From assembly GCF_900142125.1 (NCBI RefSeq), contig NZ_FQZT01000004.1, forward strand, positions 124,001-188,000: a stretch of 64,000 nucleotides of DNA, read 5' to 3'. Positions within the stretch are counted from its first letter, which is position 1. Each line of letters begins with the position of its first letter. Positions 3,297 to 51,150 of the stretch are shown here, in pieces. This DNA is from Malonomonas rubra DSM 5091. Lineage in GTDB: Bacteria > Desulfobacterota > Desulfuromonadia > Desulfuromonadales > Geopsychrobacteraceae. The position numbers and the translations under genes were made by a program. The notes under the pieces are model-generated. The model did not search any database. It was not told the origin of the DNA and saw nothing but the letters and a program-made list of their open reading frames with translations.

Positions 3297-3701
3297 TTAA
3301 TGCCCGCATTGACAGATTTCTGTCAGTACGCCACCGGTTGCTTTCGGGTGTAGGAACGCAATCAGGCTGTTGTGGGCACCGCGGCGCGGAGTCTCATCGA
3401 TCAGGCGGACGCCTTTTTCTTTCAGGTCAGCGAGCGCGGCTTCGATGTCTGCTACTTCGTAGGCCATGTGGTGGATGCCCTCGCCGTTCTTCTCCAGGAA
3501 TTTGGCGACTGGTGAATCTTCTGCGGTTGGCTCCAGCAGCTCGATACGGCTTTCGCCGACTTGCAGGAAGGCGACTTTAACTTTCTGCTCGGCCACTTCC
3601 TCGGTGCCTTCGAATGTCATGCCCAGGCCGTCACGATAAAAAGGGATGGACGCGTCGAGGCTTTTTACGGCGATACCGATGTGATTGATTTTTTCGGTCA
3701 T
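3297..3701 (-). CDS. mce: Methylmalonyl-CoA epimerase
   Basis: A 134-residue VOC (glyoxalase-fold) protein that interconverts the (R) and (S) forms of methylmalonyl-CoA, feeding or draining the mutase encoded upstream. Two beta-alpha-beta-beta-beta halves are visible: residues 1-60 (NHIGIAV, SIPFYRDGLGM, VGESRIELLEP) and 72-134 (GEGIHHMAYEV, GGVLTEICQ). Likely metal ligands are H7, H77 or H78 and E128, as in the family. Length is normal. It is the last gene of the mutase-meaB-mce series, cut off from meaB by a repeat element carrying a GxxExxY gene, so it could rely on read-through or on its own promoter. Confidence 0.93.
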   Translation of the reverse strand: MTEKINHIGIAVKSLDASIPFYRDGLGMTFEGTEEVAEQKVKVAFLQVGESRIELLEPTAEDSPVAKFLEKNGEGIHHMAYEVADIEAALADLKEKGVRLIDETPRRGAHNSLIAFLHPKATGGVLTEICQCGH

Positions 3702-3751
3702 GGTTATGGCTCCTGTTAGTCATGTTTGTGTGTAAGGCTTGAAAATCTGGT

Positions 3752-4228
3752 AGCCACCAAGGCACCAAGGGCACCAAGAGAGGCCAGTTCTTCAAAGTGA
3801 AAATCTTTGGATTCCTTGTTTGAATAATGGAGTATTGAAATTTATCAGGAATCCTAGCTGTTTGTTGGCTAGTTTCAGGTAGCTGATGATTTGGGCTTGC
3901 CAGAGTGGGTTTGCCTTTTCGGTTGCTTTTAGTTCTACAATCACTCTGTTTTCAACCAGCAGATCCAGGCGAAACCCTTCGTCGAAATTGATATCCGCGT
4001 ACTGGATCGGTACTGCAACCTGACGCGCAACCCTTAGCCCTCTACTTTTAAGCTCATATTCCAGGCAGGCTTCATAGACTTTTTCTAGAAGCCCTGGCCC
4101 AAGTTCTCTATGAACTTTAAAAGCTGCATCAACAACCACCTTGCCTATTTCATCATCCTTTTCGCAAGCTCCCATATCTTTCCCCCCCCCTAAAAGAATT
4201 TCTTGGTGTACTTGGTGCCTTGGTGGCT
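3752..4228. mobile_element. CACCAAG inverted-repeat element carrying a GxxExxY gene
   Basis: Two 28-base arms in inverted orientation (3752-3779 and 4201-4228), each built of three CACCAAG units, enclose a single small gene with only 12 and 25 bases to spare. The arms match each other at about 26 of 28 positions. The whole 477-base unit lies in the 530-base gap between meaB and mce, nine bases after the meaB stop. Three gene-free copies of the same arms occur at 5237-5335, 7536-7632 and 51062-51150. A mobile or formerly mobile unit is inferred from this pattern; no transposase and no clear target duplication is seen. Confidence 0.6.
3792..4175 (-). CDS. GxxExxY protein (PD-(D/E)XK-like)
   Basis: A 127-residue protein with the family signature G28-L-L-E31-K-V-Y34 after an amphipathic helix, then a nuclease-like core: D71 (FRLDLLV) and E81-L-K83 (VIVELKA), matching the D...ExK layout of PD-(D/E)XK nucleases. 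The C-terminal part (QIISYLKLANKQLGFLINF) is typical of the family. Biochemical function is not established to my knowledge. It is inserted in the methylmalonyl-CoA operon on the same strand and is framed by the inverted CACCAAG arms. The ATG is preceded by a run of nine G, six bases upstream, that probably serves as the ribosome site and could be slippage-prone. Confidence 0.85.
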   Translation of the reverse strand: MGACEKDDEIGKVVVDAAFKVHRELGPGLLEKVYEACLEYELKSRGLRVARQVAVPIQYADINFDEGFRLDLLVENRVIVELKATEKANPLWQAQIISYLKLANKQLGFLINFNTPLFKQGIQRFSL

Positions 4229-4237
4229 AAAAAGATT

Positions 4238-5215: not shown

Positions 5216-5236
5216 AATCTGAACCTGTAAAAAATT

Positions 5237-5335
5237 AGCCACCAAGGCACCAAGGACACCAAGAAAACCTTTTCTTTTGGCTTAAAATCCAAAGATTGGT
5301 TTGTCCCTCTTGGTGATCTTGGTGCCTTGGTGGCT
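5237..5335. repeat. CACCAAG inverted-repeat element, short copy
   Basis: Arms at 5237-5264 and 5308-5335 match those of the GxxExxY-bearing copy and pair with each other over 28 bases with about two mismatches. The interior has AAACC and GGTTT next to the arms and the string ATCCAAAGATT, which also occurs at the end of the GxxExxY reading frame. It fills the mutase-meaB gap, 20 bases after the mutase stop. In RNA it would form a long hairpin. Confidence 0.8.
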
Positions 5336-5355
5336 ATCGGTTTTGAAGTGTTCTG

Positions 5356-7535: not shown

Positions 7536-7632
7536 AGCCACCAAGACACCAAGGGCACCAAGAAAACCTTTTTAGATTTTAAAATCAAAAAACGGGTTTG
7601 ACTCTCTTGGTGTACTTGGTGCCTTGGTGGCC
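7536..7632. repeat. CACCAAG inverted-repeat element, short copy
   Basis: Arms at 7536-7563 and 7605-7632, about 24 of 28 positions pairing. Interior shares AAAACCTTTT and a TTAAAATC...GGTTTG stretch with the 5237-5335 copy, so these two are close relatives. It sits between the regulator stop (7646) and the mutase start (7494), so it would lie in a read-through transcript or just upstream of a mutase promoter. Confidence 0.8.
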
Positions 7633-51061: not shown

Positions 51062-51150
51062 GGCCACCAAGTACACCAAGAAGAGCTCTTTTTAGGGAAA
51101 ACCCTAGAATTAGGTTCGGACCTTCTTGGTGCTCTTTGTGCCTTGGTGGC
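51062..51150. repeat. CACCAAG inverted-repeat element, diverged short copy
   Basis: Left arm 51062-51083 with two CACCAAG units, right arm 51122-51150 with three; interior unlike the copies at 5237 and 7536. It sits in the radical SAM-rng gap, again between co-directional genes. Confidence 0.7.

Follow-up and report, generated by a model that had tools for sequence, protein, structure and literature searches.

The question raised by this locus is why a small gene of the GxxExxY family should lie between two inverted arms that recur, without the gene, elsewhere in the same genome. The window (the whole stretch of DNA that was analyzed, 64,000 nucleotides in length) contains one such gene, and a sequence-only reading of it had described a unit of 477 bases, from 3752 to 4228, in which the arms frame the gene with 12 and 25 bases to spare. 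Those measurements are correct. The two arms are 29-nt inverted repeats, and the features of the unit and of its gene-free relatives are provided in Table 1. Judging from the translations, its neighbors are presumably MeaB-like on one side and methylmalonyl-CoA epimerase-like on the other.

Table 1. Positions in the window of the GxxExxY unit and of the gene-free hairpins that share its arms.
Feature	Position	Strand	Description
Unit arm, 3' end of GxxExxY gene	3751..3779	+	TAGCCACCAAGGCACCAAGGGCACCAAGA, three CACCAAG iterons, spacing 8 and 9 bp
GxxExxY protein gene, 127 aa	3792..4175	-	predicted PD-(D/E)XK nuclease of Cas4/lambda-exonuclease-like fold
Unit arm, 5' end of GxxExxY gene	4201..4229	-	inverted copy, three CACCAAG iterons
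Gene-free hairpin	5236..5336	.	both arms, 43-nt loop; between MeaB-like and methylmalonyl-CoA mutase-like genes
Gene-free hairpin	about 7536..7632	.	between mutase-like gene and next gene
Gene-free hairpin, partly decayed	about 51065..51150	.	CACCAAG iterons

Allowing up to two mismatches, CACCAAGRCACCAAG occurs seven times in the window; in 100 dinucleotide shuffles, it appeared 0.27 times on average and never more than 2 times. The three gene-free hairpins listed in Table 1 share the arms of the unit, as had been claimed, and so do four more CACCAAG hairpins that lie outside of the window, elsewhere in the genome. Five of the eight CACCAAG copies, counting the gene unit, are found on one contig within about 60 kb. 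Between positions 3700 and 7640 a copy of the element occupies each of three successive gaps in one gene cluster, and in relatives the mutase-MeaB gap holds other hairpin types; the cluster may thus be a hot spot. A search against Rfam gave three miRNA matches, all at chance level and below the gathering scores, and no sigma-70-like match was found just upstream of the gene.

The gene-free copies had been interpreted as internal deletions of the unit on the basis of a string common to the first hairpin and the GxxExxY frame. The shared word is indeed present (AATCCAAAGATT, 12 nt, at 5286-5297 on the plus strand and at 3802-3813 on the minus strand, that of the gene), and a shared word of that length was reached in 2 of 2000 base-shuffled loops. 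In five other hairpin loops of the genome, the longest word in common with the gene is 7-9 nt. Because the loop of the 5236-5336 hairpin is the sole one of these with a long word, internal deletion fits this one copy but is unproven as a rule, and as a general origin of the gene-free copies it was rejected. The genome contains a second GxxExxY gene (L002) with its own arms of the same design, built from CACAGAC/CACGGAC iterons, and for this reason the rule was first taken to be "own arms" rather than "CACCAAG." Hairpins matching the CACRGAC arms of this second gene were absent from the genome when searched for by exact pattern.

The protein encoded by the window gene scores 145.4 bits against TIGR04256 (GxxExxY; cut-off 35) and 143.4 bits against PF13366 (PDDEXK_3; cut-off 22), in each case over nearly the full model. 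Searches of Pfam and NCBIfam at an E value of 0.001 gave these two families and nothing further; an IS200/IS605-like (HUH/Y1) transposase domain was absent from the protein at that threshold, and no known transposase was recognized in the unit. An AlphaFold2 model of the protein has a pLDDT of 93.9. The top solved structures matched by the model are SSO0001, which we take to be a Cas4 protein, LHK-Exo, and lambda exonuclease; the matches are moderate, with none at an E value of 0.001 or better (Foldseek E of 0.0088 and TM-score by query of 0.50 for SSO0001). The tRNA-splicing endonucleases appear at ranks 6 and 9-12, and MGME1 at rank 17. By sequence search, there are weak matches to Cas4 models in a defense library (E of 0.0034) and to T7 endonuclease I (E of 1.9). 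Conserved in the window protein are E31, D71, E81, K83, Q95, and Y99, the last two being those of the QxxxY motif. Invariant among 28 diverse proteins are G26, G28, E31, Y34, D71, K83, Q95, Y99, N112, F113, and R124, and E81 is present in at least 90% of those sequences. The predicted fold and the D...E-x-K active site agree in suggesting a PD-(D/E)XK nuclease, which is the assignment made from the sequence alone. The dN/dS ratios for eight non-independent pairs range from 0.03 to 0.19, with a median of 0.085. At another locus (L049 in G184:C3), the GxxExxY frame, with its start codon assumed, begins within the arm, and thus the iterons seem to encode the N-terminus (MNHETHENHEK...).

Of 297 genomes sampled from the phylum to which the window belongs, 109 have a GxxExxY match, and the genes are present in 30 of 41 relatives, at a low copy number of 1-10 per genome. 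There were 222 distinct genes in the pooled set, 208 of which were full-length, and 196 of these were bordered on each side by at least 150 nt free of long runs of N. Inverted arms scoring at least 15 flank 176 of these 196 testable, mostly high-scoring genes (median score 22), which are the best-scoring matches rather than a random draw and therefore over-represent intact genes. The same score was reached by 43 of 666 other ORFs of the same loci (median 11) and by 125 of 980 mispaired flanks, and inverted arms were found at none of the 30 PIN genes taken from that phylum, among the matches listed. Note that the downstream flank was measured from the end of the HMM match because some arms overlap the stop codon, a choice that raised the count from the 163 of 198 obtained by measuring from the stop codon. 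For the control ORFs, which ran from stop to stop over 110-400 codons, the flanks were measured from the ends of the frame, and the 30 PIN loci, like the 30 TIGR02436 loci considered below, came from longer match lists. In 20 of the 176 scoring elements, the regular expression recognized no iteron, and a small number of these alignments do not represent iteron arms.

The association extends well beyond the phylum. Of 80 loci from named genomes, three were dropped for too little flank, and 69 of the remaining 77 have inverted arms. According to the record titles, the loci with arms include Acidobacteria, Planctomycetota, Bacteroidetes, Chloroflexi, Nostoc, Dolichospermum, Verrucomicrobiales, Alpha-, Beta-, Gamma-, and Zetaproteobacteria, Nitrospiria, Gemmatimonadetes, Armatimonadetes, and others, together with one archaeal locus from Methanosarcinales (L088). 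Carriage by phages or plasmids was rejected: the gene was found in none of 50,697 phage records and in 8 of 72,556 plasmid records, and none of 18 pattern matches in viral contigs was confirmed. Of the six plasmid matches examined, four score at least 15, one of them (L228) without clear CRCNRAK iterons. That GxxExxY genes are associated with inverted arms is close to certain. The expectation that the arms elsewhere would be CACCAAG did not hold, however; the arms are general, and their iteron is specific to the protein within the pattern CRCNRAK.

The usual arm consists of three iterons of the form C-R-C-N-R-A-K, with a spacing of 8-10 bp in 437 of 482 cases measured. At least four iterons are present in 139 of the 176 elements, six being the commonest number, and the outer span of the elements has a median of 532 bp. 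In 124 elements, the outer end reads approximately TTnACC, located at and before the first iteron, with weak conservation further out. In the genus of G055, the CGCAGAG-type hairpins (for example, Aq1 349964 and 363742 of G055) have, outside of the generic TTnACC, an additional inverted end near TTGATCAATTCGTAAAAA. The two arms of one element have a similarity of 0.87 versus 0.49, a difference that is partly built in because the alignment chose the arms.

When the iterons of the 139 elements with at least four regular-expression iterons were mapped onto protein trees, base 7 required 5 changes, as compared to a mean of 29 and a minimum of 26 after shuffling. The corresponding values are 17 versus 46 for base 2, 20 versus 46.5 for base 5, 32 versus 49 for base 4, and 26 versus 49 for the spacing (91 elements); for each of these there were fewer changes than in every shuffle. 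The iteron similarity to the element of the nearest protein in another genome is 0.78, or 0.70 if the proteins are less than 65% identical, and that between random elements is 0.51. For another element of the same genome, it is 0.61 over all 38 comparisons and 0.43 over the 24 ordered comparisons in which the proteins are less than 60% identical. The iteron sequence thus follows the protein rather than the host. The match between iterons and protein tree, together with the contrast within genomes, argues against host composition as the cause and favors a single unit made up of gene and arms. Base composition was also rejected as the source of the CGC/CAC difference, the locus GC contents being 0.527 and 0.504. 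By itself, this matching cannot tell recognition from co-inheritance, and it is compatible with either.

The gene type present in a genome is also reflected in its hairpins. Across the 41 relatives, pairs of iterons were counted with all hits within 300 bp of GxxExxY genes excluded, and one-sided p values were calculated. The median number of CACCAAG pairs is 18.5 in the 4 genomes with a matching gene and 1 in the other 37 (p of 0.010). For CACAGAG, the values are 8 in 3 genomes and 0 in 38 (p of 0.010), and for CGCAGAT, 2 in 6 genomes and 1 in 35 (p of 0.021). With the arms of the genes themselves counted in, the p values are 0.007, 0.010, and 0.005, respectively, and the CGCAGAT effect shrinks upon their removal. 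Reversed-pattern controls were mostly zero, with a maximum of 8 in G329. Some genomes are rich in hairpin iterons of an arm type for which they carry no gene, namely G297, G301, G315, and G329 for CACCAAG (24, 25, 31, and 32) and G324 and G327 for CGCAGAT (34 and 41). Such a pattern would be produced by relics and by incomplete genomes, and also by another mobilizing agent.

Movement of the unit was addressed at orthologous sites. The gap next to MeaB holds a gene-bearing unit in G302, G308, G225, and G311 (gene broken), and by coordinates in G178 and G313 (gene broken); a gene-free hairpin occupies it in G307, and where neither is present it measures about 50 bases (for example, G303, G126, and G309). 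All seven gene copies in this gap, including that of the window, have arms. On a quick protein tree, six of them (window included, G313 left out) fall in three separate places, and thus the gap seems to have been reached repeatedly. In G329:C1, the MeaB-epimerase gap contains a gene with AGAATA-type arms (L185), which from its translation we take to be S23-like. The sequence-only reading was to fall if the family lacked such repeats in other genomes, or if the gene sat fixed without arms at orthologous sites; the survey and this gap display the opposite on both counts, and together they support the proposed pairing of an autonomous unit with non-autonomous hairpins. The empty sites that it had called for were found in the form of the short gaps next to MeaB, but no exact empty site that would define the ends of the unit was found.

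A comparison of G055 with G017, whose blocks are mostly 93-98% identical, revealed 69 length differences over about 227 kb aligned. Twelve of these rows, one event appearing twice, have CRCNRAK arms on at least one side. A GxxExxY unit is present in one of the two genomes where the other has a different hairpin, and in G055 a CACCAAG hairpin is nested within another hairpin at a place where G017 lacks it; similar nesting with another outer type occurs at L174. At several orthologous sites, one hairpin family stands in place of another rather than as a clean insertion. Further iterated hairpin families, of the AGAATACAGAAT, TTTTGAATTTTGCA, and GGAACTCAGGAACTCA types, also differ between these genomes at intergenic sites (L289-L306). 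Near-identical copies of the unit lie at unrelated sites in G153 (97% over 480 bp) and in G072 (95% over 537 bp), the matches extending 48-72 bases above and 63-144 bases below the gene match. Two of the three G153 copies share their downstream flank, and part of that cluster is thus ordinary duplication. From these comparisons of sequence, the mobility of the unit is well supported.

No target-site duplication above the level of shuffles was detected in 124 elements for lengths of 2, 3, 4, 5, and 8 bp at 12 x 12 offsets; such duplications are not made by all mobile elements. A clean 5-bp duplication, ATTAG, does accompany a CAGCTATCAGC-iteron hairpin (G055:C10, position 1131) at a site that is empty in the sister genome (G017:C3, position 18498), and it was rejected as a GxxExxY target duplication because it belongs to that other hairpin family. 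Iterons similar to CAGCTATCAGC flank some TIGR02436 genes (L392, L397, L406, and L408).

The elements are not uniform in the orientation of their repeats. Direct repeats scoring at least 15 are found at 105 of the 196 genes, as compared to 67 of 666 control ORFs and 3 of 30 PIN genes among the matches listed. The direct score exceeds the inverted one at 75 of the 196, and at 29 of these a whole hairpin lies in one or both flanks. Among the 20 genes that lack inverted arms, 15 are flanked by direct repeats; in either orientation, repeats are present at 191 of 196 genes versus 91 of 666 controls. These counts indicate that the simple picture of two inverted ends fails for some copies, and the whole hairpins in the flanks indicate that many units have other hairpins as neighbors. 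At L251, L261, L262, L263, and L141, the iterons on the two sides of the gene share one direction, and those of the near-identical unit copies in G072 are likewise direct rather than inverted.

On balance, we lean toward the view that the unit is an autonomous mobile element moved by its own Cas4-like nuclease, with the gene-free hairpins as its non-autonomous companions. The 477-bp unit would consist of two inverted terminal arms of three iterons apiece and a single gene that encodes a small Cas4-like PD-(D/E)XK nuclease. Most likely, the nuclease binds its own iterons, draws the two ends to each other or acts on them when folded as hairpins, and cuts or processes them. The unit, and the gene-free hairpins with matching arms, would then be copied into new intergenic sites, and a unit without an evident promoter of its own would stay intact when sense-oriented in a host operon. 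This explanation is built upon the near-constant arms, the matching of arms to protein, the conserved active site residues, the low dN/dS in eight pairs, the presence or absence at orthologous sites, and the copies at unrelated sites; from these we infer binding, cutting, a DNA intermediate, and the nuclease, rather than a host function, as the mover. Standing against it are the lack of a target duplication and of an exact empty site in the comparisons above, the direct repeats, the sites where one hairpin family replaces another, the 20 scoring elements without a recognized iteron, the genomes with hairpins and no gene, the low copy number, the rarity on plasmids, and the absence from the phage records. 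Nor are we aware of a stand-alone PD-(D/E)XK domain capable of transposing DNA.

The main rival, which we regard as rather unlikely, is that the hairpins are spread by another agent and that the nuclease gene is a homing-type invader of them, the enzyme cutting a gene-free hairpin and the gene being copied in by way of the homologous arms. Gene-bearing and gene-free hairpins do occur at the same orthologous site (L163/L168 versus L171, and G055/G017 versus G148/G091/G120), protein and arm type match, and gene-less hairpins exist, all of which homing would produce. Yet the same gap holds units from three places on the tree with different arms, as in the arrival of whole units, and between genomes the arms and the gene go together.

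A role at the level of RNA, in which the arms would form a stem in operon transcripts that the protein processes or binds and the unit would serve as a regulatory or self-excising cassette much like the rRNA intervening sequences, is improbable. The predicted stems are very stable, at -60.1 kcal/mol (z of -9.5) for the 5236-5336 hairpin and -54.1 kcal/mol (z of -8.2) for the 7536-7632 hairpin, the S23-like family has the same architecture, and the tRNA-splicing endonucleases are among the weaker fold matches. In addition, of 147 genes with both neighbors within 600 bp, as called by a simple longest-ORF script, 91 are oriented along both neighbors, 9 against both, and 47 are mixed. The top fold matches, however, are DNA nucleases, and a sense bias is also expected of a promoterless element that needs expression to stay intact. 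Least probable of all is that the hairpins arise or move by replication slippage or a host transposase with the nuclease as a passenger employed elsewhere, for example in defense, given that arms flank nearly all family members tested and none of the listed PIN genes and that the iterons are protein-specific even within one genome, although the genomes compared also differ in other iterated hairpin families, hairpins commonly occur with no gene to match them, and the defense library contains the weakly matching Cas4 models.

The preferred reading, an element moved by its own nuclease, may be part of something larger. Among the matches listed, 27 of 29 testable TIGR02436 genes (30 loci, L387-L416) have inverted iterated arms, and the best period is 7 in 24 of the 29 arms measured, which are mostly not CRCNRAK. 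This family, which we take to be that of the S23 four-helix bundles, may be a second protein family that is carried by elements of this design. More tentatively, and with doubts that outweigh our confidence, we suggest that the GxxExxY units constitute a new superfamily of mobile elements of minimal size in prokaryotes (about 450-700 bp, driven by one Cas4-like nuclease recognizing triple iterons at both ends) within a wider iteron-armed class that includes the S23-like TIGR02436 family with its 7-bp iterons. If true, the wider class would account for intergenic hairpin repeats in many phyla as well as for the 23S rRNA intervening sequences, which have been a puzzle for a long time.

No function for GxxExxY, PF13366, TIGR04256, or PDDEXK_3 was found in the literature searched, which contains passing mentions of the family. 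A description of the arm-gene association was likewise not found in that literature, a scope that left aside preprints and most subscription papers, and neither were six representative arm strings. To our knowledge, there is no catalogued family with these parts, and the units are apparently a widespread and undescribed kind of tiny mobile DNA element. With a near-constant DNA partner, an "unknown nuclease" becomes a testable protein-DNA pair, and abundant orphan intergenic hairpins gain an owner. The results also suggest that one small nuclease domain may suffice for DNA mobility.

Several known systems invite comparison. The predicted PD-(D/E)XK fold is that of Cas4, lambda exonuclease, and LHK-Exo, from which the GxxExxY protein differs in being a stand-alone domain of 127 amino acids whose match is moderate. 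Like miniature inverted-repeat elements (MITEs) and their partner insertion sequences, the short gene-free relatives share the ends of the gene-bearing unit and the ends are inverted; unlike them, no transposase family was recognized and no target-site duplication was found. In the 23S rRNA intervening sequences, a small gene also lies inside a stem of terminal inverted repeats, and the S23 gene is known from these sequences, which have been described as a selfish element with terminal inverted repeats whose origin and functionality are unclear (PMC4990558). The GxxExxY protein is, however, unrelated to S23, and the intervening sequences reside within 23S rRNA genes, with RNase III excising them, whereas the window unit lies between two protein genes. 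The S23-like parallel opens the old question of how the rRNA intervening sequences spread to direct tests. The closest resemblance in general strategy is to the REP-RAYT system, for which the source describes a chromosomal gene between two inverted repeats, gene-free intergenic repeats, repeats that co-vary with the protein, and copies that may cluster near the gene (PMC2817692). Inverted repeats co-varying with the protein are found here as well, with exceptions at 20 of 196 genes. The REPs carry their own palindrome, whereas in a GxxExxY unit each arm consists of direct iterons, and it takes both arms to make the palindrome. According to that source, the RAYT enzyme is related to the IS200/IS605 transposases (Pfam01797; PMC2817692), and thus the GxxExxY units, with their predicted PD-(D/E)XK nuclease, would pursue a similar strategy with an unrelated enzyme.
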